From a virus: a stretch of 23,823 bases of DNA. Shown piece by piece: positions 2,632-23,400 of this stretch. The DNA lies in IMG/VR virus record IMGVR_UViG_3300006802_000575, positions 1 through 23,823 of that record, one strand, 5' to 3'. The number at the start of each line of letters is the position of its first letter. Position 1 is the stretch's first letter. The position numbers were made by a program, and so were the translations under genes. Below the pieces are notes generated by a model, which was given only the letters and a program-made list of their open reading frames with translations, searched no databases and had not been told where the DNA came from.

Positions 2632-3123
2632 ATGGGAAGTTATAAAACCAATAAACAAGTATTAAAAAAATTAACTGTTGAAGAAGCACAAGCCTTTATT
2701 CCGGTTACTATGGAAAATTCTGATGAGTTAGAAAATGCTTATTTTTATACTATGGTACCTATGGGTAATGGTTGGGATGAGATAAATTATTATACTAATC
2801 GACCTGTTCAACATTGGAGAACAGGACCTTATAATGGTTGGATTTATATTTTGTCTAATAGAACAATGCCTGGTCTATTTAAAATAGGACATACTAAAAA
2901 TAATCCTGAGGATCGTGCTAAAGAAATTTCACGTGCAACTGGTGTCCCTATTCCGTTTGAAATTGAATGGGCATTTAATTGTTATGATTCTGATATGTTA
3001 GAGAAAGAAATTCATAGAGCTCTAGACTCGTTTAGATATACATCAAATAAAGAATTTTTTGAAATATCTTTAAATGAGGCAAAAGAAACTATAAGAAAGC
3101 TTGGCTCTGCATATAGGAGTTAG
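2632..3123 (+). CDS. T5orf172 / MUG113 (GIY-YIG superfamily) domain protein
   Basis: Residues about 66-160 form a T5orf172-type domain, a GIY-YIG relative common in phages. They start GWIYILSNRTMPGLFKIG, followed by R (ERA.E/DRAKEISRATG), then an E.EIH.AL helix and an end NKEFFEIS. The Y-I-L and K-I-G strands replace the GIY and YIG motifs, and the arginine in DRAKEIS and glutamate in EKEIH take the catalytic-type positions. The first 65 residues are a separate, unrecognised N-terminal part rich in polar residues. Unlike the gene at 342 it has no NUMOD repeats, so a homing role is not shown; a nuclease or DNA-binding role is inferred. It starts 62 bases after the DUF932 gene, and an element of the recurrent motif follows its stop directly. 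Confidence 0.75.
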   Translation: MGSYKTNKQVLKKLTVEEAQAFIPVTMENSDELENAYFYTMVPMGNGWDEINYYTNRPVQHWRTGPYNGWIYILSNRTMPGLFKIGHTKNNPEDRAKEISRATGVPIPFEIEWAFNCYDSDMLEKEIHRALDSFRYTSNKEFFEISLNEAKETIRKLGSAYRS

Positions 3124-3346: not shown

Positions 3347-3419
<73 letters not shown>

Positions 3420-3518
3420 CCCGGATTCATATAAATCGAGGCAACTCTTTAGGTAGAAATATATGGATAAACAACCCGTCACGGTATGCCTAAGGGTAGG
3501 AGTGAACTGAGGAGAAAT

Positions 3519-3586
3519 AGTCAGGTGGCGTAAGGTAACGCCTCATTATTGTAGATGAGAGATACAGTTCGGAGCGGTCCTGACTA
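3519..3586 (+). tRNA. Degenerate tRNA-like element sharing its acceptor stem with 166-250
   Basis: The 68-nt unit has the same acceptor stem as the element at 166 (AGTCAGG/CCTGACT), the same next bases TGGCG and the same 3' flank ACAAA. It shows a D arm GCG TAAGGTAA CGC and a stem CTCAT/ATGAG. The anticodon loop has 8 bases (TATTGTAG) and the T arm does not pair (CAGTTCGGAGCGG), so it does not meet the normal cloverleaf. It may be a pseudo-tRNA or a tRNA-like RNA. Confidence 0.35.
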
Positions 3587-3591
3587 CAAAT

Positions 3592-3663
3592 TGCGGGATA
3601 GAGCAGTGGTAGCTCGCTAGGCTCATAACCTAGAGGTCATAGGTTCGAGTCCTATTCCCGCTA
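3592..3663 (+). tRNA. Initiator tRNA-fMet (anticodon CAT)
   Basis: This is a complete 72-nt cloverleaf: TGCGGGA/TCCCGCT with a T-T mismatch at the first pair, D stem GAGC/GCTC, anticodon stem CTAGG/CCTAG with loop CTCATAA, and T arm ATAGG TTCGAGT CCTAT. The unpaired 1-72 position and the A11-T24 pair are the hallmarks of bacterial initiator tRNA, against elongator Met or Ile. It has two rather than three G-C pairs next to the loop (AGG instead of GGG), a departure from the usual initiator pattern. Confidence 0.88.
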
Positions 3664-3788
3664 CACTAGCCCTAAGTACACGGGATCGAAAAGCAGTCGT
3701 GGCATACCGTAAGATCTGCTCGCTTAATTGCTCCTAATCGTTAGTAGGCACAGTTGACAACTCTGGAGGCGATACAAAAGTTGTAATT
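3664..3788 (+). other. Structured tRNA spacer without a recognisable gene
   Basis: No tRNA T-arm signature and no open frame is visible in this 125-nt spacer. It holds several possible hairpins: AGCAG/CTGCT (3692-3696 with 3716-3720), CTAA/TTAG around 3734-3744, and ACAACT/AGTTGT (3757-3762 with 3779-3784). It could be a small phage RNA, like the non-tRNA stable RNAs in the T4 tRNA cluster, or merely a processing spacer. Confidence 0.25.
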
Positions 3789-3873
3789 GGAGATTTGGCA
3801 GAGCGGTCGAATGCGGCAGTCTTGAAAACTGTTGAAGGTAATACTTCCCAAGGTTCGAATCCTTGAGTCTCCG
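3789..3873 (+). tRNA. tRNA-Ser (anticodon TGA)
   Basis: This is a complete 85-nt class II cloverleaf: acceptor GGAGATT/AGTCTCC with discriminator G (the usual serine base), anticodon stem GCAGT/ACTGT with loop CTTGAAA (anticodon TGA), a long variable arm, and T arm CAAGG TTCGAAT CCTTG. It reads the TCA and other TCN codons abundant in the window. Confidence 0.95.
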
Positions 3874-3969
3874 CACCTTAATACCGATTCGGGTTTGACG
3901 GTCAAGTGGGCCCTGCGACTATGACTTAGTAATAAGTAATTAGACAAAACGTCATTAAATATCCATCAC

Positions 3970-3993
3970 GTTAGATGGCATCGGTGATCTAAC
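3970..3993 (+). other. Hairpin in the spacer before tRNA-Gln
   Basis: GTTAGAT (3970-3976) pairs perfectly with ATCTAAC (3987-3993) around a 10-base loop, ending 5 bases before tRNA-Gln. No T run follows, so a processing element is more likely than a terminator. The spacer 3874-3998 otherwise shows no gene. Confidence 0.35.
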
Positions 3994-3998
3994 ATTAT

Positions 3999-4069
3999 TA
4001 CCCTTTCGTCTAATGGCAGGACAATTGGTTTTGGTCCAATTAATCGAGGTTCGAGTCCTTGAGGGGTAA
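3999..4069 (+). tRNA. tRNA-Gln (anticodon TTG)
   Basis: This is a complete 71-nt cloverleaf: acceptor TACCCTT/AGGGGTA, D stem GTCT/GGAC, anticodon stem ATTGG/CCAAT with loop TTTTGGT (anticodon TTG), T arm CGAGG TTCGAGT CCTTG and discriminator A. It reads CAA, the dominant Gln codon here. Confidence 0.93.
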
Positions 4070-4076
4070 CATAATT

Positions 4077-4148
4077 GCTCGGTTCGTCTAGGGGTTAGGA
4101 CAGGAGATTTTCATTCTTCAAACAGGGGTTCGATTCCCCTACCGAGTA
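4077..4148 (+). tRNA. tRNA-Glu (anticodon TTC)
   Basis: This is a complete 72-nt cloverleaf: acceptor GCTCGGT/ACCGAGT with a G-T first pair, D stem GTCT/GGAC, anticodon stem GGAGA/TCTTC with loop TTTTCAT (anticodon TTC), and T arm AGGGG TTCGATT CCCCT. It reads GAA, the dominant Glu codon in these genes. Confidence 0.93.
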
Positions 4149-4150
4149 CA

Positions 4151-4215: not shown

Positions 4216-6105
4216 ATGAAAAAAATCCTTTTTTTCCTATTTTTCCTTACCTCTGTAATCTCAGTAAGTGCTAAAACATTACCTGCTCCTGGAACTGGAG
4301 TTTATGTATTAATTGATACTAACTATACTGTAAGTACTTCTTTAAATCCTACAACTACTGCTAGCTTATATTATACTAATAGTACTGCTACTTTAGTTAC
4401 AGGTATGCAGTTTAGAGTATTTTATGATAAGGTAGCATTTAATGGTGCTGCTCCTACAGTCGCTTTAAAATATCCTAGTACCGATCAAAATCTTCAATAC
4501 AACGTTAATACGACTGATGGTTATATTACTATAACCTTGGTTTATACTGGTTCTAACGCTACTTTTAATTACGTTAATAGCGAATTAGTAGCTATCACAT
4601 TTACACACGCTATTGCTTCTACATTTAATAGTTTAGCTAGTATTTCTCCTTTAACTGTAACTGGTGTTCAAACATTTCCTGCTTTTGCTTCTAAAAATAC
4701 AGGTATGGACACAACATTAAATTTATATAGTTATGGTGGTAATTTTTTAAGACCTACATTCTTATTCACTTCTACATTTACTAATGTAACAGGTACAGGA
4801 GCTAAAAATGTTACTATTAAATTATCTAAAAAACCTAAAACTGGATCTACTTGGACTACAATTGGAACTTATACTTCTGATTTAGATGGTATTGTATCTG
4901 TTAATCCGGTTATTGACACTACATTTTGGGATATTAAGTTTGCAGTTCAAGGTGATACAATGAATGTAGGTAAAATTATTTCAGTAGCCGATGCTCAAAA
5001 AGTAAACCAATTCGTATTAGGCACAGCTACTCCTTCAGGATTTGATTTCTATACAGCCGATGTTAATAACTCAAATACTATCTCAATATCAGACGTTTAT
5101 TCTATATTTGGTAGAATCGCAGGCCGATTCTCAGTATGGCCTAATAACACTCCAGATGTAAGATTCTTTACAGCAACTGAATATAATTCAATTAATGGTT
5201 CATCTACAAGTTTAAAATCAACTATACCAGGTGTTACTAATTTTGAGTATTATATTAATGGTACTTCAGTAGTAACTTATTATATTGCTGGTTTAGGAGA
5301 TGCTAATGGTACTGGTTTTAAAATGGCTAGATTAGTTCCTATCCAAATATTAAACCCAAATAACGCTCCTAATTATATTATAGATCAAACAGTAGAATAT
5401 TATGCTAGTTTAAATGAAATTGAAATTAATTTACCTAGTTTAAATGTTGTTGAAGGTAATTTAGTTAATATTCCAGTTAAAGTATTTACAAATGAAGATT
5501 TAGGTTCATTACAATTAGCAATGAAATATGATAAAGATTTATTAGAATTTAAAGGTTTATACACAGATGAAAAACCAATGACTTGGTTATCATTCTTAAA
5601 CGCTAATGATGGTATTGTAGAATGGGGTGGTATAGACATGTCTAATAATAAATTTAACTTAAAAAATAATGAACAAGTTGTTACATTACAATTTTTAGCT
5701 AAAAAACCTAAAGATGAGTGGTCAGCGAGTCCTTTATATGTATCACAAAAATATGTAGGTAATGCTAATGCTTCTGATTTAAATATTAGGCCTACAGATG
5801 GTAGAATTCAAATTCAAAGAGCAATGAATACAGTTGCCTTTAATCCAAATGAAGCTACTATAACTGTATTTCCTAACCCAACAGGTGGTTTAGTTACAGT
5901 ACAATTCAATATACCTAAAGATGGTATTACAACAGTTGCTATTGTAGATATGCAAGGTAATGTTAGAAGAGAAATATTAAGCGGCAAAGTACCTGCAGGA
6001 GCTTATCAGTACGCTGTTAATTTAGATACTATGGCTCCAGGAATGTACTTAGCAGTATTAGAAAACAATGGAAAGGTTATATCAAATAAAACAATTTTAA
6101 ACTAA
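4216..6105 (+). CDS. Type IX secretion cargo with cohesin-like and dockerin-like modules
   Basis: This protein would be exported across the inner membrane, then across the outer membrane by the host type IX secretion system, and anchored or released at the cell surface. It has a signal peptide (1-19, cut after SVSA); a cohesin-like beta domain (about 28-150) with MQFRVFYD; a beta domain (175-245); a dockerin-like pair of helices, VADAQKVNQFVLG (257-269) and ADVNNSNTISISDVYSIFGR (281-300); a linker; a second cohesin-like domain (about 400-535) with SLQLAMKYDKDLLEFKG; and a T9SS type A sorting domain (about 546-629) with VFPNPTGG, G-NV and a final KTILN. The family assignment of the C-terminus (TIGR04183-like) is strong; the cohesin and dockerin calls are by pattern. 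It opens the cassette before the lysis genes. No catalytic domain is visible, so adhesion or scaffolding is inferred. The sorting domain points to a T9SS-bearing Bacteroidota host. Confidence 0.82.
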   Translation: MKKILFFLFFLTSVISVSAKTLPAPGTGVYVLIDTNYTVSTSLNPTTTASLYYTNSTATLVTGMQFRVFYDKVAFNGAAPTVALKYPSTDQNLQYNVNTTDGYITITLVYTGSNATFNYVNSELVAITFTHAIASTFNSLASISPLTVTGVQTFPAFASKNTGMDTTLNLYSYGGNFLRPTFLFTSTFTNVTGTGAKNVTIKLSKKPKTGSTWTTIGTYTSDLDGIVSVNPVIDTTFWDIKFAVQGDTMNVGKIISVADAQKVNQFVLGTATPSGFDFYTADVNNSNTISISDVYSIFGRIAGRFSVWPNNTPDVRFFTATEYNSINGSSTSLKSTIPGVTNFEYYINGTSVVTYYIAGLGDANGTGFKMARLVPIQILNPNNAPNYIIDQTVEYYASLNEIEINLPSLNVVEGNLVNIPVKVFTNEDLGSLQLAMKYDKDLLEFKGLYTDEKPMTWLSFLNANDGIVEWGGIDMSNNKFNLKNNEQVVTLQFLAKKPKDEWSASPLYVSQKYVGNANASDLNIRPTDGRIQIQRAMNTVAFNPNEATITVFPNPTGGLVTVQFNIPKDGITTVAIVDMQGNVRREILSGKVPAGAYQYAVNLDTMAPGMYLAVLENNGKVISNKTILN

Positions 6106-6115
6106 TAAATTAAAC

Positions 6116-6469
6116 ATGGCAAAATTAAAAGAAATCCTAGGATTAGGAGAAACAGAATTCAAGAAAGTAGATGATAAAAATCGTTTCTACTTTATGTTAC
6201 AACAAATGCAAACTAACCGTTGGAAAATTACAGGTATTGTATTATTTTTATTTTTCTTTATTATCTTTGGAATTAACATGGCTGTATTTTTAAATGTTTC
6301 TATTCAAGAGTCTTGGAAAGAAATGTTACTTATCCTTTTAGGTGCCTTTGTAGGTAACTTAAATAAAGTAGTAGACTACTGGTTTAACTCAGAAGATAGA
6401 GACAAAATGTTAATCCAAAAAGTAGACGAAGAAGACGGAAAATCATTATCAAACACTATAACTCAATAA
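6116..6469 (+). CDS. Two-TM membrane protein, holin-like
   Basis: The 117-residue protein has a cytoplasmic N-terminal part (1-34), two hydrophobic segments (about 37-60, ITGIVLFLFFFIIFGINMAV, and about 69-85, EMLLILLGAFVGNL), and a charged tail that starts VVDYWFNSEDRDKM. Two membrane segments joined by a short loop with a charged C-terminus match many phage holins, and a short LLLGAFVG helix followed by a YWF motif is common in them. It lies 10 bases after the T9SS cargo and 4 bases before the next membrane protein, in the same run as the M15 endolysin. Holin is inferred from topology and context. It could instead be an inner-membrane part of the secretion cassette. Confidence 0.6.
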   Translation: MAKLKEILGLGETEFKKVDDKNRFYFMLQQMQTNRWKITGIVLFLFFFIIFGINMAVFLNVSIQESWKEMLLILLGAFVGNLNKVVDYWFNSEDRDKMLIQKVDEEDGKSLSNTITQ

Positions 6470-6473
6470 TAAT

Positions 6474-6764
6474 ATGTCAGAAGAAGAAACACAAGAATCA
6501 ACCTGGACAGGATTGAAGAAAACAATCATTGGAACCTTAGCCACTGTAGTTACAGCAGGTGGCGCTTGGATTGGTACAACTTTGTTTGGTGGTGAAGAGG
6601 CAGCTCCAGCTCCTGTTCAAGCAGCACCTACAATTAATATTACTCAACAAGCAGCTCCAGCAGCAGTACCTGTTAATAACACTACTATCATTCATGAGAA
6701 GACAGTAGAAAAAGCAGCTCCTGCTCCTAAAGAAGAACCTAAAAAAGAAGAACAACCTTGGTAA
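6474..6764 (+). CDS. Single-TM protein with an Ala/Pro-rich periplasmic tail, unknown
   Basis: The 96-residue protein has an acidic N-terminus, one membrane segment (about 17-38, TIIGTLATVVTAGGAWIG) and then a low-complexity region of Ala, Pro, Gln and Val ending in KEEPKKEEQPW. The layout resembles a short TonB-like or spanin-like periplasmic linker: an anchor and an extended, Pro-rich arm. No TonB C-terminal fold is present. It overlaps the CsgG-like gene by one base (TAATG), so the two are probably made together. An inner-membrane spanin role beside a holin-like gene, or an energy or anchoring link for the pore next door, are both possible. The function is unknown. Confidence 0.6.
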   Translation: MSEEETQESTWTGLKKTIIGTLATVVTAGGAWIGTTLFGGEEAAPAPVQAAPTINITQQAAPAAVPVNNTTIIHEKTVEKAAPAPKEEPKKEEQPW

Positions 6765-7516
6765 TGAAAAGTTTTTGGAATAAATACAAACACTTCATTA
6801 TTACAGTATTAGGATTAATGCTACTCACTACATTAGCTATGAACGCTAATGCTCAAGTGGGTAGCGTTAAAACTGAAAAATATCAGGCTGACTTTGAAAA
6901 GAAACAATCTATTGAATTAGTTGCTGATTATAATGGTCCTGTTATTCCTATTCAGATCTTAAAAATTGGAATTAATGAAGAACTATTCGAGATGTATCCT
7001 GAATTAAAGGATAAGCGAGTAGGTTTAGGTGTTACTAATATTGTACTTGAATATTTAGAATATACTAATCGTTTTGAATTTACAGAAGATAAATTAGAAA
7101 TCAAAGAAAAAATGATTGCTCAATTTAAAGCTTCTAATAAAGGATTTACAGAAAATAAAATAGACGGTAAAGGTAAAATTAAGTTAGCCCGTTACTTTGT
7201 TTATATTGAAGTATATGATTTTTCAGTAGCTGAAAATGAAATATTTGACATTCAAAAAGGTAAAAGCTATTCTCGTATAGATCAAACAACTACATTAGGT
7301 TTACAAGTTAGATTTGTAGACGCTCAATCAGGAGAAGTAATTGTTGGGTCTGGTTTAGGAGAAGCTGTTACTGTTAAAGAATCTACTATGTTAGGTAATA
7401 TTGATGAAGTTAAATTTAATCAATCAACAATTGGTATTACTACTAAAAAATCACTTGAAACCGCATCATCTCGTATTGTGAGTAAACTTATTAAAAAAGG
7501 TGTATTTCCACAATGA
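6764..7516 (+). CDS. CsgG-family outer-membrane secretion protein
   Basis: CsgG proteins form the nonameric outer-membrane channel that exports curli subunits. From the ATG at 6764 the protein is 250 residues (a TTG six bases earlier is less likely because the ATG overlaps the previous stop as TAATG). Signal peptide 1-30 ends AMNANA. The CsgG-like body shows the early strand-helix part with KRVGLGVTNIVLEYLEYTNR (84-103), a grown-strand region ARYFVYIEVYDF (142-153), the strand TLGLQVRFVDAQSGEVIV (177-194), GLGEA (197-201) and a long C-terminal helix ending IVSKLIKKG. Length and order fit the family. Curli CsgG is a lipoprotein, but there is no cysteine at the cleavage site here, so it may be soluble in the periplasm or anchored differently. 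It overlaps the next gene by ATGA. No CsgA-like repeat subunit is visible nearby. Confidence 0.75.
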   Translation: MKSFWNKYKHFIITVLGLMLLTTLAMNANAQVGSVKTEKYQADFEKKQSIELVADYNGPVIPIQILKIGINEELFEMYPELKDKRVGLGVTNIVLEYLEYTNRFEFTEDKLEIKEKMIAQFKASNKGFTENKIDGKGKIKLARYFVYIEVYDFSVAENEIFDIQKGKSYSRIDQTTTLGLQVRFVDAQSGEVIVGSGLGEAVTVKESTMLGNIDEVKFNQSTIGITTKKSLETASSRIVSKLIKKGVFPQ

Positions 7517-8754
7517 AAAAATTTATAGTACTATTAGTTTTATTACTGCCCTTAGCTGTATTAGGCCAAAGTACTGTAAACTATTCATATAGTGATCCTT
7601 GTACTGGTAAAGTAAAAAATCTTACTTTTCAAGATAATCAAACTATTACTGTTAATTATTTAGGTTATATTCAAGCTTTTGATTTTAATCAAATTAATAA
7701 TGGTGAACTTGAGACTTGGATTAATGGAGTAGCAAGACAAAATACTTCTAGCCCGTGTGCCGCTGCTACTACTGTTGTTACTACTGCAACTAATTTAGCT
7801 ATAACTAATAATATTATATCTACTTTAACTAATGTCACCTCAGTGGCTACATCTGTAGGTTCAAGTTTAGCCTCAGCTATTCCTATGCCTTCAACTCCAT
7901 CATCTCCTTCTTCTACACCTTCATCTAGTACACCTTCAAGTAAAAAATTAGAAGGAGGTGAAACAAACGATAATGCAACAGAAGAATCTACACCTACTAC
8001 CACAACTACTGAAGGTGGATCAGATAATACAGGAGGATCAATTAGTAATTCAGTTGAAGGCACATCAAGTGAAGGAGGAAACTCAGGTGGAGGTGGTGGA
8101 AAAAGTACAGCTAAAGCTAAAGAAGCTAAAACTAATACTGGTAGTTTAATTGGATCAGGTGATATTGTTGTAACTAATAATAGAAATGATAATACAAATA
8201 ACTTAAGAATGACAGCTAGTATGACTAAGTCAAACTATAAAAATACATTTGCTAAAGGTTTCTTATTTAATTTTACTACTCAACTTAATAACTCTAACCT
8301 TACATTTTATACTGCTTCTACTAAGAAAAAATCTACACTTATATTTGCTAATTCAAGTTTAGTAAATAAAGACTATGATATATTTAATACTACTACAGCT
8401 ATAGAATCTTATCGATTTGGTAAGTTTTCAGCTATGGGAGGAGTTAATTTTACTTTAGGAAAAATAGGTACTAAAGGATTTCAAAATTTATCATCAGTTG
8501 CAGGAGGTTTCTATTTATTCCCGGTGAATAAGAATATAACAGGTAATTTTTTATTATTAAGTGTTTATTCTCCATTTACTCAATTTTATGATGGTAGATG
8601 GTGGAATAGTGGTTTATTGTTAGTACCGTTTAGTTCTTGGGATTTTAAAGTAACTAAAACATTTAAATTTAATATTAGTTTCTCAGGAGTATATGAATTA
8701 AATAAAAGTATGTTAAATTACCAGATATTAACTGGTGGAAAAATAATGCTATGA
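7513..8754 (+). CDS. Secreted protein with Ser/Thr/Gly linker and probable outer-membrane beta-barrel
   Basis: The 413-residue protein has a signal peptide (1-18, ending LAVLG) and a small N-terminal beta domain with two cysteines (C30, C82). Next comes a long low-complexity region (about 125-215) of Pro, Ser, Thr, Gly and Glu with a GGGGG run. The C-terminal part (about 230-413) has alternating hydrophobic and polar strands, rich in aromatic residues, such as KFSAMGGVNFTLGKIG and FKFNISFSGVYEL, as in a small outer-membrane barrel. It overlaps the CsgG-like gene by ATGA and the next gene by ATGA, so production is likely coupled. I recognise no named family; it is not an evident CsgE or CsgF. 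A role as partner, anchor or cargo of the CsgG-like channel is inferred from order alone. Confidence 0.6.
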   Translation: MKKFIVLLVLLLPLAVLGQSTVNYSYSDPCTGKVKNLTFQDNQTITVNYLGYIQAFDFNQINNGELETWINGVARQNTSSPCAAATTVVTTATNLAITNNIISTLTNVTSVATSVGSSLASAIPMPSTPSSPSSTPSSSTPSSKKLEGGETNDNATEESTPTTTTTEGGSDNTGGSISNSVEGTSSEGGNSGGGGGKSTAKAKEAKTNTGSLIGSGDIVVTNNRNDNTNNLRMTASMTKSNYKNTFAKGFLFNFTTQLNNSNLTFYTASTKKKSTLIFANSSLVNKDYDIFNTTTAIESYRFGKFSAMGGVNFTLGKIGTKGFQNLSSVAGGFYLFPVNKNITGNFLLLSVYSPFTQFYDGRWWNSGLLLVPFSSWDFKVTKTFKFNISFSGVYELNKSMLNYQILTGGKIML

Positions 8755-10007
8755 GATATTTGCTAATATTACTATTATTACCTTTAAATTTATTAGCACA
8801 AAATTTTTCATATTCAGGATATGTTTATAATGCTGATAATACAGGGGCACTTAATGTTCCTATAAAGTTGTATGCTAGAACATCTAATGTAGCGGCGGTA
8901 GTTCAAAACTCTGAACAATTTGGAGTGTCTAATGGTTCAGCTTGGTTAACTAAAAATACATATAGTGGTACTCCAAATAATAGCACAACATATAACTATA
9001 GTACAACTAATGCTTTTACAATCACTACATCAGCAGGATCAGCTACTATAGCTCCATTTACTTCTAATATCCCTGCTAATAGAAATAGAGGTACATCTGT
9101 TTTATTTTCATCACTTAATTCAGATGAAGGTTCAGTAATTATAACATTTCCTTCAGGATTTACTCCTTCTTTTTTAGGCACTACTTATTCTAGTGGTCAT
9201 ATAAATACTAATTCATGGTTCACATTTGGAACTAATAGTAGTTCAGGATATAGTGGTACTGCTTCAAATCCTAATGCACCCACACTGCATATAGGATCTG
9301 TAAGTAATAGTACTACAGATAATAATATGTCTTATACTAGTACAGAATCTTACACTGATCCATATTGGGGAGATGTTTTTAGAGTAAGATATGAAGGTAA
9401 TTCTAATTATAGTCAACAAGGTATTAACACTATTTATGACTTATATTTTATAAAAAATCAACCTAATACCCAATTAGTTGTATGGAGACAATTTACAACA
9501 GATGGTTCATCTACCTCAGTAAGTGGGTCACCTCCAGGACCTTGGACTTTAAATACTACATCTATTACTAATTCAACAGGTTATTATTCTTTTAATACAA
9601 GTTTAAATATTTCATCTTATGAATTTTATATTCAAATAGATGTACCTAGTCCTATATCTAATTTAGATAATAATGATATAATTAATACTCTTAAAGTTAT
9701 TAATGGTACTATTCCATTTAATAGTTCTTTTTATTATTTAAATGATGTAAATGGAGATGGAAAAGTTACTGTGTCTGATGCTTATTATATTGGAGCTAAA
9801 AAACAAGGAAGATTTACAACATGGGTAGGAACTTTTACTTCTCGACTATTTACTCCTACAGAATATTCAACAATTAAATCTAATACTTCAAATCTAAAAC
9901 CGACTTATCCCGGCGTATCTTCAATTACTATCTCTAATCCCACAAGTGGCGGTAGTAGTAATTACTATATTATAGCTCCGGGTTATAGCACTAATACAAC
10001 ATTTTAA
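8751..10007 (+). CDS. Secreted beta-rich protein ending in a dockerin-like module
   Basis: The 418-residue protein has a signal peptide (1-16, ending NLLA) and a carboxypeptidase-regulatory or Ig-like start (18-45, YSGYVYNADNTGALNVPIKL). A large beta-rich, Ser/Thr/Asn-rich ectodomain (about 85-300) includes a W-rich section with VVWRQF. The C-terminus has a dockerin-like pair: DNNDIINTLKVINGT (306-320) and NDVNGDGKVTVSDAYYIG (331-348), the latter with the Ca-binding DxNxDGxxxxxD spacing. The part after it (GRF.TW, then LFTPTEY, LKPTYPGV) repeats the same order as the T9SS cargo at 4216, so the two proteins share a module of about 80 residues. It lacks a T9SS sorting domain, so it may reach the surface by the neighbouring CsgG-like channel or by docking. 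Adhesion or assembly is inferred; no enzyme motif is seen. Confidence 0.65.
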   Translation: MRYLLILLLLPLNLLAQNFSYSGYVYNADNTGALNVPIKLYARTSNVAAVVQNSEQFGVSNGSAWLTKNTYSGTPNNSTTYNYSTTNAFTITTSAGSATIAPFTSNIPANRNRGTSVLFSSLNSDEGSVIITFPSGFTPSFLGTTYSSGHINTNSWFTFGTNSSSGYSGTASNPNAPTLHIGSVSNSTTDNNMSYTSTESYTDPYWGDVFRVRYEGNSNYSQQGINTIYDLYFIKNQPNTQLVVWRQFTTDGSSTSVSGSPPGPWTLNTTSITNSTGYYSFNTSLNISSYEFYIQIDVPSPISNLDNNDIINTLKVINGTIPFNSSFYYLNDVNGDGKVTVSDAYYIGAKKQGRFTTWVGTFTSRLFTPTEYSTIKSNTSNLKPTYPGVSSITISNPTSGGSSNYYIIAPGYSTNTTF

Positions 10008-10009
10008 AC

Positions 10010-10462
10010 ATGAAACACCTACTAATCTTTTTATTCTTATTATTACCGTTTACTTTATTAGCAAACGATTGTGTTTACGTTAATCAAATAACTGTAAATA
10101 AAAAATTTAAAGAATTAAACAGCAGAAACATTAAATTTGGTATAAAACAAATTACAGAGGAATTACTATCAGAAAGATATTGTCTGGCGGACTCTTCTAA
10201 CGCTGTTGATATAGAAGTATATTCTATAGGAGCCCCTAAAACCACCATTCGTATTATAGGTGCCTCGTCAATATCTCAAGTTACTCAAATTAGTTTAAAA
10301 GTAACTTATAAAGGAGTAGTATATGAAGGTTTAGGAGAAGCTGAAACTGATGTTAGATCTATGTTTATTGAATTAGAAAATAATGAAGTACCATTTAACA
10401 ACACTACTATATCAATTGCTTTAAAAAGAGCACTTCAAAACGCTATACAAAGGTTACCTTAA
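10010..10462 (+). CDS. Small periplasmic protein resembling the C-terminal part of the CsgG-like protein
   Basis: The 150-residue protein has a signal peptide (1-18, ending FTLLA) and a mature part with alternating strands and helices. Its second half (about 93-148) runs ISLKVTYKGVVYEGLGEA, then EVPFNNTTISIALKRALQNA. This matches by eye the CsgG-like protein at 6764 from LGLQVRFVDAQSGEV through GLGEA to EVKFNQSTIGITTKKSLETA, with similar spacing. It therefore looks like a shortened paralogue without the full channel-forming part. Cysteines at 21 and 58 could form a disulfide. It starts 3 bases after the dockerin-like protein and ends 36 bases before the endolysin. A periplasmic adaptor or accessory to the channel is inferred. 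Confidence 0.6.
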   Translation: MKHLLIFLFLLLPFTLLANDCVYVNQITVNKKFKELNSRNIKFGIKQITEELLSERYCLADSSNAVDIEVYSIGAPKTTIRIIGASSISQVTQISLKVTYKGVVYEGLGEAETDVRSMFIELENNEVPFNNTTISIALKRALQNAIQRLP

Positions 10463-19860: not shown

Positions 19861-20213
19861 TGGAACAAGTAAATTTAAATAAAACTGTTTTTTTAAAGGA
19901 TCAATATGAAAAAGTTATTGATACTTCATTCACTCAACTAGTTCAGCCTGCTGCTACTAGTTCAGTTGTTCCTCCTTCTATCTCAGTAGCTGAATTTTTT
20001 ACTAATTATCAAACTTTATTTTTTGAAATACCTAAATATGGTAATATAAATTCACATGAATATTTAATTAAAACAAGTCAAGCTTACGCTGGTGATTTTA
20101 ATAATGATGATACTATTCAAGCATTAATTGAAGAAATAACATCATTAAGACAAGAAAATTTGACTTTACAAGAACAAATATTAAATACCACTACAGCTAG
20201 CATTAATCAATAA
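19860..20213 (+). CDS. Small structural protein with C-terminal coiled coil, unknown
   Basis: The 117-residue protein has a beta-like N-terminal part (MEQVNLNKTVFLKDQYEKVI), a Pro/Ser hinge (SSVVPPSISV) and a C-terminal coiled coil (about 83-108, TIQALIEEITSLRQENLTLQ). It overlaps the gene before and the gene after by one base each. An adaptor that trimerises and joins the flanking large structural proteins is plausible from this layout. No family is recognised, and there is no signal peptide or membrane segment. Confidence 0.65.
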   Translation: MEQVNLNKTVFLKDQYEKVIDTSFTQLVQPAATSSVVPPSISVAEFFTNYQTLFFEIPKYGNINSHEYLIKTSQAYAGDFNNDDTIQALIEEITSLRQENLTLQEQILNTTTASINQ

Positions 20214-20434
20214 TGAGTAAAATAGTTAATATACAACCAGTTAATCCTATAACATTTGAATATCAAACATATTCACCTCAGGATGAATCTTTAATATCTA
20301 GTTTTGAAGTCACTAATAATTTTAATGTCTCTTCAAGTTATATAGAATATTTTATTTATGATTTAAATAATACTATTTATATAGTAATGAACTTGGATAT
20401 AATGGTTACTCATTTCAAGGAGCAAATGTATTAA
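20213..20434 (+). CDS. 5' part of a giant baseplate/tail wedge gene, before an apparent frameshift
   Basis: The frame starting at ATG 20213 (overlapping the previous stop as TAATG) reads a beta-rich start, with TFEYQTYSPQDESLISSFEV and SSSYIEYFIYDLNN, but then enters an out-of-frame stretch and stops at 20434. At about 20376 the sense clearly continues in the -1 frame with LYSNELGYNGYSF, which stays open to the window end. Adding a single T to the TTT run at 20376-20378 would join the two frames as NNTILYSNE. A one-base deletion (natural or an assembly error) is therefore the simplest reading, and this should be annotated as one gene with the following entry. Confidence 0.62.
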   Translation: MSKIVNIQPVNPITFEYQTYSPQDESLISSFEVTNNFNVSSSYIEYFIYDLNNTIYIVMNLDIMVTHFKEQMY

Positions 20435-23400
20435 CTATTGATCCCCAAGCCGATTTAGAAACTCAAGGATACACAGAAGGACAATATTATACAGTTTATA
20501 ATTTTTTAAATCCATTATTATCTTCTAGTGCTCTTAATAGATACTATATTGATCAAATTAGTTCTAATAGGACAGAAATTAGATTAAACACTACTCAAAT
20601 ACCTAATATTGATGTTGTTAGTTCTTCATTAGATTTACAACTTCAAATTAGTCAATCTTTTGGAGGTTATAAAGATTTTTATTTAGATTTTGGATCAAAT
20701 CAACTTATTATCGCTAATAATGTTTTATTAGATAATAGTAATCCAAATGATCCTACAGTATTAATTAAATTATACGACCCACTTCCTTTAAATTTTGATT
20801 TACAATCTCAGTGTTGGGTAGTAGAAACAATAACTGAACCTTTAGCTTATCAAATTGAAATAACTCAAGTATTTCAACCGTTAGATGAGTTTATACAATT
20901 ACGTGGTCCTAATACTAATTTAAATATTAGTGATCAAATTAATAATTCAACAGATTATGTTAATTATTCTTCATTAAGCGCTACTACATCAGTTAATAAT
21001 TCATCAAGTTTAAAATATCAATTAAATAGTTTACTTGCTGAAAAAGGAATTGAAATTAATATTGATTATAATTATTTTAGAAATTTTTGTAATTTTTCTT
21101 CAGCACAAACTCGTTTAGAAAATTTTTACTACAAACTAGTATTAATTGAACAATACAGTGTTAGTAGTAGTTATACTTCTGGTGCTACTAATTATTACAC
21201 ATCAGGTAGTCAAACAATTTGGGATAATAAAATAAATGATATCATAACTAATTTTGATGGTTATGAATATTTCTTATATTTTGAATCAGGAAGTAATTCA
21301 TGGCCTAAATCAAATTCTACTCCTCCTTACAATAATTTATCTACACAAGACTCAGCTTCACAAGCTTGGTTAAATGTTAAATTAGTAGAAGCAGAAGAGT
21401 ATGATTTAGAAAACAGTAATAACTTAATTTATAGTATCCCTAGTTATCTATTAGACGACCCAGCAAACGCTCAATATGAATTATTTATTGAGATGATAGG
21501 TCAATATTTTGATGATATTTGGGTTTATATTAAAGATGTCACTAACAAATATAACGCTGATAATAGATTAAATTATGGTGTATCTAAAGACTTAGTAGCT
21601 CAAATATTAAGAGATTTAGGTGTTAAAATTTACCAAAATAATTTTTCAGTAGATAACTTATATACTGCTTTCTTAGGACTAACTAATTCAGGAAGTTTAT
21701 ATAACATTCCTAATATTACAAATACATTACCTGCACCTACAGGTTTAGAGTACATTAACCTTATAGTGACCGCCTCTAACACAGCATCTCTAGTAGGTAC
21801 GGACGATGTTAATAAAGAAACTTATAAGCGTATTTACCACAATTTACCATTCTTATTAAAGAAAAAAGGTTCATATGAGGGTTTAAGAGCATTAATTACT
21901 ACTTACGGTATTCCTGAAACTATATTAAGTATAAGTGAATATGGTGGTAAAGATAAAAATTCTAATACTTGGGATTACTTTAAACAAATTTATAACTATA
22001 ATTTAATTACGGGTTCCGGAGAAATAAGTACTCCATGGAATTTAAACCCAAGTTGGTCAGTAGCTGTAGATTCATCTAATCAAACACCTTCAACATTACA
22101 ATTTAGATTTCAAACTCAAGGTTTACCTACTTCTAATATTCCATATTCTCAAAGTTTATGGCAATTAAGTAATATAGGAGCTTTAGTATTAACTTATACA
22201 GGATCAGGATATACTTCAGGTTCATATAGTGGATCAGCTATTGATCCTTATTATCAATATGCTAAACTAGATTATTATCCAAATAAAACAGTTGGTATAA
22301 CTAATACAGCTAGTGTTTATTTACCTTTCTTTGATGGAAATTGGTGGTCAGTAATGTTAACTAGATCAGGTAGTACTTACACTTTATATGCTGGTAATAA
22401 AATTTATCAAGGATTTGAAGGAAATACAATCGGATTTATTGCATCAGGTTCTACAATTTCAAGTAGCATCAATTGGGATACAGTAGGAAATAGTACATTT
22501 TATTCTCCTGTAACTATAAATAGTAAAACATATAACTCATTTACTGGTTCATTACAAGAAATAAGATATTATACTACTCCTATATCAGTTAATAGATTTG
22601 AAGACTATGTAATGAATCCTCAATCTATCGAATCAGAAGATACACCTAATCAATTAGCTTTTAGAGCATCATTAGGTGGCGAATTATATACTGCTTCTTT
22701 ATCGATACATCCTAAAGTAACTGGATCGTGGATTGCAACATCTTCATTTGATGGTGGTAATAGCAGTTGGACATCTAGTTTAACTCCATTATTTACTTCT
22801 AATACAGAATATGCTTACTATAACCAACCAGCAGTAGGTATTCAAAATCCTATTACTGATAAGATTAAAGTAGTAAATATGATAATGCCTACAGGCAGTA
22901 CTTTATCTCCTTATATTTCAATACAACAAAATCCTCCAGTATCACAAAGTGTTACTAAAGATATTGATTATGTTGAAGTAGCATTTTCTCCTCAGGATGA
23001 AATCAATGTTGATATTTACGATCAATTAGGTTATTTTAATATTGGAGAATATATTGGTGATCCAAGATTAGTACCTACTAAAGAAGAATCATATCCTCCT
23101 TTAGATAAATTAAGAGATGCTTACTTTGAAAAATATACTAGTAACTATAATGAATGGGATTATATAAGACTTATTAAGTTCTTTGATAACTCATTATTTA
23201 AAATGTTACAAGATTGGGTTCCTGCTAGAACAAGTTTAGCAGCCGGTGTTGTAGTAAAACAACATATTTTAGAACGTAATAAATATCCTTTACCTCAACC
23301 TAATATCACCTCATCAATTGCCTTTATAGGTAGTGGATCAACTAATATTCCTTATTTAACTGAGAATATATTAGTTACTGGTTCTTCTATTGATATAGTA

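Follow-up and report, generated by a model that had tools for sequence, protein, structure and literature searches.

A pair of secreted proteins, here called A and B, was analysed in the 23,823-base IMG/VR virus record IMGVR_UViG_3300006802_000575, which was taken in its entirety and is referred to below as the window. A combines cohesin-like domains with the C-terminal sorting tail of the type IX secretion system (T9SS), and B carries a variable head followed by a dockerin-like module that is also present in A. We consider it probable, with some reservation, that the two form a phage-encoded, two-component display device for the surface of the infected Bacteroidota host, in which the anchored A holds B and B displays an exchangeable adhesin. 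The two genes and their parts are as follows.

4216..6105, plus strand: A, T9SS-anchored cohesin protein, 629 amino acids; domain order signal peptide, cohesin-like domain 1, transthyretin-like domain, dockerin-like module, cohesin domain 2, T9SS type A sorting tail
4297..4749, plus strand: A residues 28-178, N-terminal cohesin-like domain (weak; Pfam Cohesin matches two stretches in A)
4753..4953, plus strand: A residues 180-246, transthyretin/CnaB-like domain (weak Transthyretin matches; co-linear with a sister B)
4954..5331, plus strand: A residues 247-372, dockerin-like module and beta extension ending in GDANGTG
5410..5823, plus strand: A residues 399-536, cohesin domain 2 (PF00963 over cut-off; fold match)
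5866..6096, plus strand: A residues 551-627, T9SS type A C-terminal sorting domain (PF18962, TIGR04183)
8751..10007, plus strand: B, head-bearing secreted protein, 418 amino acids, dockerin-like module C-terminal; signal peptide present, sorting tail absent
8802..8879, plus strand: B residues 18-43, constant N-terminal strands of the transthyretin-like domain (BLASTP match of A182-206 to B19-43)
8880..9539, plus strand: B residues 44-263, variable head of the window type (no family match)
9654..9842, plus strand: B residues 302-364, dockerin-like fold (residues 18-80 of the model described below)
9744..9779, plus strand: B residues 332-343, near-canonical second calcium loop DVNGDGKVTVSD
9843..10004, plus strand: B residues 365-418, beta extension common to A (FTxTEY, LKxTxPGV)

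The original prediction was that A and B share a module in which two helices are followed by the elements GRF, FTxTEY and LKxTxPGV. All three elements were found in both proteins, at residues A303 and B353, A318 and B367, and A333 and B382, respectively. BLASTP aligned A with B at E 3e-10 (26/64 identical), and the local alignment score of 158 exceeded the maximum of 133 reached in 1000 shuffles of B. The stretch after GRF scored 96 by itself, compared with a maximum of 68 in 2000 shuffles; the helix part alone was weaker, its score being reached by one of 2000 shuffles. The similarity of A and B is therefore genuine, and more than the calcium loop contributes to it. The module lies at both open reading frames (ORFs) as predicted, but the extent given for it was too short: in each protein the shared unit also takes in a transthyretin/CnaB-like domain ahead of the dockerin part. 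In the window's B the head splits this domain. In the B of a sister phage (L043), in which it is uninterrupted, 159 residues aligned with the window's A at E 6e-31, and the same B aligned with the A of its own record at E 2e-19; a marine pair of B and A aligned weakly (E 0.004). Within A, the dockerin-like part is the best conserved between the window and a distant clade, with 62% identity compared with 48-50% in the cohesins and 33% in the sorting tail.

For a structural view of the module, the segment from the window's B (positions 9603-10004) was modelled from 68 sequences. The model, with a predicted local distance difference test (pLDDT) score of 89.4 and a predicted template modelling score of 0.80, has helices at residues 23-33 and 57-67 with a short one between, followed by an extension of strands and a helix; it contains the pair of loop-helix repeats with dockerin fold. 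A Foldseek search of 350,542 PDB chains returned 44 rows at E<=10, of which ranks 1-16 were all dockerin chains (best E 0.22, probability 0.97), E-values that are not significant by themselves. With a second structure aligner, all 14 rows were dockerins, the best being 4dh2_B (Z 6.6, root-mean-square deviation [rmsd] 2.9, 62 aligned, model residues 18-80). Despite the modest scores, the purity of the dockerin match list appears telling. Profile comparison pointed the same way: hhalign matched the module profile to a Ruminococcus albus dockerin at E 1.3e-7 and 94% probability with both halves covered, and gave a probability of 0.1% in a control against the phage's own cohesin. Dockerin_1 was also the commonest Pfam match among the 68 modules, ahead of EF-hands (25/68 at E<=1, best 2.4e-4).

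Cohesin-like domains had also been predicted in A, and this was borne out by the PF00963 profile, which scored over cut-off at residues 404-533 (27.2 versus 24.1 bits). The same profile was over cut-off in all of 17 large phage records (74 to 180 kb, possibly incomplete) and matched each of 23 aligned fused A proteins. In the AlphaFold2 model of A, residues 400-536, where pLDDT was 50-79 in blocks of ten, matched the cohesin fold, with Z 17.8 and rmsd 2.1 over 136 residues aligned to 6kgc_A; the best 41 of 50 rows were cohesins or cohesin complexes by title, row 28 (2o4e) being titled only as a protein-protein interaction module. In the window the match to the N-terminal cohesin-like domain is weak; across the 17 records this domain reaches the Pfam cut-off in 5 and E<=0.01 in 16, and in four of the 17 a 512-residue frame has a further marginal cohesin match, under cut-off. 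The sorting tail of A was matched by PF18962 (4.8e-9, 36.8 versus 27 bits) and TIGR04183 (1.4e-9, 37.8 versus 23 bits). The expectation that a single partner carries the T9SS signal held throughout, with exactly one such tail per phage in 17/17 records, on A or on A2, the tail-bearing half of a split A described below, and none on B. An N-terminal hydrophobic stretch, as scored by a simple script rather than SignalP, was present in 62/62 B, 33/33 A1 (the other half of split A) and 41/41 fused A proteins examined. Here and below, counts of B refer to 62 distinct sequences, all complete and 251 residues or longer; truncated sequences were excluded.

A and B occur together. Relatives were found at 56 viral loci for A, 8 for B and 45 for the split cohesin-tail protein. 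Among 104 distinct records with the module, 46 have a fused A and then B, 43 have B and then A1, one has two Bs and an A1, and 14 have a single module; both genes are thus present in 90 of the 104. In the 14 single-module records the contig end falls before or within the partner's place, and the contig edge of one of them (L036) still shows the head of B. Repeat contigs (L059-L062, L073, L074, L081) and pieces of the window (L001, L002) were left out of this tally, two immuto isolates (L067 and L069) were each counted, and L054 holds only the first 179 residues of A, without the module. In the 17 large phage records the module profile matched at two places in 16 and at three in one, which has two Bs; in these records the module is confined to A and B.

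In Flavobacterium phage immuto (host Flavobacterium sp. LMO8) and many metagenomic relatives, A is split into two genes. A1 (363 amino acids) comprises cohesin-like domain 1, the transthyretin-like domain and the dockerin-like module, and A2 (243 amino acids) comprises a signal peptide, a cohesin and the T9SS tail; fused A is matched by A2 over residues 386-626 (E 1e-25), and B lies directly upstream of A1. Genes that are fused in one lineage and separate in another are a standard sign of physical contact. The split of A1 from A2, set against the fused A, thus leads us to expect contact of the dockerin-like module with the anchored cohesin.

The calcium loops distinguish the copies of the module. 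Dockerin type I loops carry ligands at positions 1, 3, 5 and 12. The second loop of B has 12 residues, with D1, N3 and D12 in 62/62 proteins and D at position 5 in 52/62. The corresponding loop of fused A is mostly one residue longer, and in A1 all 33 distinct loops start with N and none has aspartate at position 5. A loop that is near canonical in B but degenerate in A1 suggests that B is the partner under selection to bind. Together with the split form of A, it favours B as the docking partner of the T9SS-anchored cohesin.

B is constant in its N-terminal strand pair and its C-terminal part and variable in its head. Pfam assigned 30 of the 62 heads to the C-type lectins, 9 to PA14 and 5 to GEVED (E<=0.001), with LamG inside one lectin head; by a motif rule, a further 13/62 are of the window type and 5/62 of a marine PA14-like type. 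All 30 lectin heads (PF00059), a type to which the window's own head does not belong, retain both EPN and WND, motifs that supply ligands for calcium and for sugars of the mannose type. The head is inserted after the first strands of the transthyretin-like domain in the lectin, PA14 and window types; in the GEVED and marine types it lies N-terminal to that domain, and the whole unit aligns with A unbroken. Comparison of the window with L003, L007 and L065 revealed an abrupt change at the head: the compared cassette neighbours are 80-99% identical (A 93 and 90%, off the contig in L065; CsgG-like protein 95-98%; M15 peptidase 91-99%), whereas the B heads are 24-25% identical, that is, unrelated. 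Conversely, L008 has a head 96% identical to the window's and a constant C-terminal part 77% identical. The heads recombine freely, and anchor and dock are constant. No family match was found for the window-type head, and a 159-residue part of it had no match among 50,697 phage records; a suspected likeness to cyanophage structural proteins was not confirmed. In one B (L086:2365-4032), the LamG-type domain is nested in the C-type lectin head, which is itself nested in the transthyretin-like domain.

A and B belong to a cassette, the other members of which are listed here.

6116-6469 and 6474-6764, plus strand: two small membrane proteins (membrane nature by eye)
6764..7516, plus strand: CsgG-like protein (weak PF03783 match in relatives)
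7513..8754, plus strand: secreted protein, perhaps a barrel of the outer membrane (by eye), with a low-complexity linker
10010..10462, plus strand: small secreted protein, a conserved cassette member with weak similarity to the CsgG-like protein

The stop of the 7513..8754 gene overlaps the start of B (ATGA), an arrangement kept for 45 of the 46 B genes in fused-A records where both genes were located. The swappable heads and the CsgG-like neighbour are additions to the original prediction. The CsgG-like gene is present in 54/57 fused and 43/47 split records. Its putative assignment is clear by eye and thin by search: PF03783 matched 1 of 13 relatives, weakly (E 0.025), a CsgG search of phage records matched at this gene in 3 of 14, one of them over cut-off (21.0 versus 20.8 bits), and the protein had no PDB match. 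If true, it would add a CsgG-like pore carried by Bacteroidota phages to the pelagiphage reports discussed below. In sister phages the CsgG-like protein has a lipobox-like N-terminus (LAGC). The 10010-10462 protein is weakly similar to the C-terminal part of the CsgG-like protein (hhalign probability 47%); its identity as CsgE, suspected by eye, was unsupported by searches. In one clade an extra secreted gene of 267 amino acids, barrel-like by eye, lies between B and the 10010 homologue (L004:6148-6951), and L005 and L006 have a gap of equal size there. An M15 peptidase gene is located just downstream of the cassette in the window, with baseplate genes further downstream; in immuto the cassette is near replication genes, after ribonucleotide reductase.

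From these parts a working order of events can be proposed. A would be exported by Sec and then by the host T9SS, and its sorting tail suggests that it would be retained on the outer membrane. Cohesin domain 2 of A, and perhaps cohesin-like domain 1, would receive the dockerin-like module of B, as we infer from the occurrence of both folds, from the strictness of the pairing and from the split of A. B, which would also be exported by Sec, might cross the outer membrane with A or through the CsgG-like pore encoded between A and B. The predicted outcome is a surface-anchored adhesin with an exchangeable head, be it C-type lectin, PA14, GEVED or window type. Its probable purpose would be to let infected cells adhere to the glycans of neighbouring hosts, algae or particles; alternatively, it might cover host glycans used by rival phages. 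Chain-like self-assembly of A through its own module is possible but not favoured, because the loop of A1 is degenerate. More broadly, and as a tentative suggestion only, a host-displayed lectin system in a large group of Bacteroidota myoviruses may give the infected cell a sticky surface ahead of lysis, and progeny would thereby emerge near new hosts or colonised particles.

Several observations weigh against docking of B on A. In the PF00404 search that the original prediction called for, the profile touched the second calcium loop of B alone and scored 13.9-14.7 bits in the window, below the cut-off of 22.9; no PF00404 match was listed for the window's A, and among ten relatives scanned singly none exceeded the cut-off (best 19.2 versus 22.9 bits). 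Type I dockerins have two calcium loops, and in the module the second is near canonical while the first is without its ligands in both A and B. Because of the score under cut-off and this degenerate first loop, we term the module dockerin-like and do not assign it to PF00404. The structural scores are modest, none being significant alone, and the whole-A model, built from 23 sequences, had a pLDDT of 56.5, with the module below 50, making it usable for the cohesin and sorting tail only. In addition, a module of A that binds A's own cohesin could exclude B, and we know of no phenotype for any such phage. It is also conceivable, although we regard it as unlikely, that the shared unit is a spacer duplicated between A and B, or that the module of A folds on its own cohesin, A and B being independent surface proteins. 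The degenerate first loop, the failure of the modules scored to reach the Pfam dockerin cut-off, the degenerate second loop of A1, and the position of the module immediately before the cohesin in fused A would all be consistent with such an arrangement. However, B has neither tail nor anchor, yet it is without its partner in only one of the 104 records, at a contig end; its second loop is near canonical in every B examined, and in the split phages the module and the anchored cohesin are on separate chains.

Two other explanations place the proteins elsewhere. B could be periplasmic, or exported by the CsgG-like pore alone, with A as a separate T9SS cargo and the cassette serving lysis or uptake, an explanation to which we assign a low probability. 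The CsgG-like gene and the small membrane proteins do lie between A and B, the start of B overlaps the stop of the gene following the CsgG-like one, and the M15 peptidase gene is close by; lysis or uptake has been proposed for the curli pore of Melnitz and the pelagimyophages, and the excerpted text of one study proposes a role for phage CsgG in lysis (PMC9004378). Against this, heads of the lectin, PA14 and LamG kinds would be hard to explain in the periplasm, and the M15 gene is confined to the window's own clade among the loci compared. That A and B are decorations of the virion tail or capsid, with lectin heads binding the host at adsorption, is very improbable. Swapped carbohydrate-binding heads do resemble receptor-binding variation, the baseplate genes are downstream in the window, and one of the 62 B proteins matches a PHROG named virion structural protein. 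Nevertheless, the N-terminal hydrophobic stretches of B, A1 and fused A and the T9SS tail of A in every large record indicate that both proteins leave the cytoplasm, where virions assemble, which argues against a place in the virion; furthermore, in Immutovirus the genes are near replication genes.

Display of B by an anchored A, the explanation we prefer, has its closest parallel in cohesin-dockerin pairs (PF00963/PF00404). As in those pairs, a cohesin fold in A is matched by a dockerin-like fold with a near-canonical second loop in B, and one partner is cell-anchored while the other carries a head, often carbohydrate-binding. Unlike them, A and B are phage-encoded, anchored by a T9SS tail and without any enzyme seen, and their binding is only predicted; the first loop of the module is degenerate and an extra beta extension is fused to it. 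Nor do A and B resemble a cellulosome, with its repeated cohesins and dockerin-bearing enzymes: A has at most two cohesin-like domains, and no enzyme family was found among the 62 B proteins at E<=0.001. The signal peptide and sorting tail of A are as in Bacteroidota T9SS type A surface proteins, and many Bacteroidota host proteins combine dockerin-like, cohesin and T9SS parts.

Among phages, the curli genes of pelagimyophages, pelagipodophages and Melnitz offer a second comparison, in that the excerpted reports describe a CsgG-like gene in a conserved cassette of secreted proteins (PMC7029224, PMC9599517, PMC9004378). The window differs in its weak CsgG similarity and in its likely adhesin, which would be a T9SS-anchored cohesin-dockerin pair whose heads are swappable. 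Adhesion or 'sibling capture' is suggested for the curli genes in the excerpts of two of these reports (PMC7029224, PMC9599517); that of the third gives no clumping in culture and prefers a role in lysis (PMC9004378), which calls for caution in reading the present cassette as a capture device. The cultured phage vB_FspM_immuto (Immutovirus, MW353176.1) carries the same cassette in split form, with a C-type lectin head on B, A1, A2 and the CsgG-like protein. Its record, in which annotations read lectin C-type, hypothetical and cohesin domain-containing, has single-gene names only and leaves the shared module, the pairing and the CsgG similarity unnamed. No phage cohesin-dockerin pair or phage T9SS cargo scaffold was described in the open-licence literature searched, and a passage search of the main text of the paper on phages and strain LMO8 (PMC7077304) found none of the words cohesin, dockerin, lectin and immuto. 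The parts are each of a known kind; their combination, strict pairing and exchangeable heads are the new element.

Searches beyond viral records returned few relatives. A profile scan of genome contigs with the A alignment found a single one, L068 (RFPL01000028.1), in a metagenome-assembled genome labelled Sphingomonadaceae; both module matches lie on that contig, which is most likely a mis-binned phage contig. Plasmid searches with A, the B module of L017 and A2 gave mainly sorting-tail matches, the sole module match, at E 10, being a Ruminococcus albus dockerin. A Tenacibaculum plasmid, suggested as a carrier of the phage cassette by a baseplate gene, has the sorting tail alone in common with it, and a Persicobacter plasmid ORF with a T9SS-like tail by eye has no evident dockerin.

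If the proposed docking is true, this would be, as far as searched, the first description of a cohesin-dockerin pair as a phage device, as well as the first case of a phage using host type IX secretion for an anchored scaffold. It raises the question of what a phage gains when it alters the range of sugars that its host cell can hold. A cultured system in which capture, exclusion and virion explanations are separable is available in Immutovirus on Flavobacterium sp. LMO8. The swappable heads would amount to a naturally occurring collection of small lectins displayed on a surface, and the cohesin-dockerin-like pair might serve as a new orthogonal clasp for proteins. Considered alongside the pelagiphage curli genes, the device would, if true, make surface remodelling for capture a general phage strategy achieved with unrelated parts.

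Three other regions of the window were noted. Between tail genes, positions 20207-21493 include about 1 kb with short open stretches only; the region is AT-rich (24.7% GC in 20001-21000) and resembles a frame-broken gene or sequence errors, with no Rfam intron there at gathering score. Five tRNA genes (Thr, Met, Ser, Gln, Glu) were located by ARAGORN in 3347-4149, and a sixth, at 166-250, by Rfam only. Homing-endonuclease-like genes, with NUMOD motifs and T5orf172 GIY-YIG, are present at 342-1022 and 2632-3123, near the tRNA cluster.

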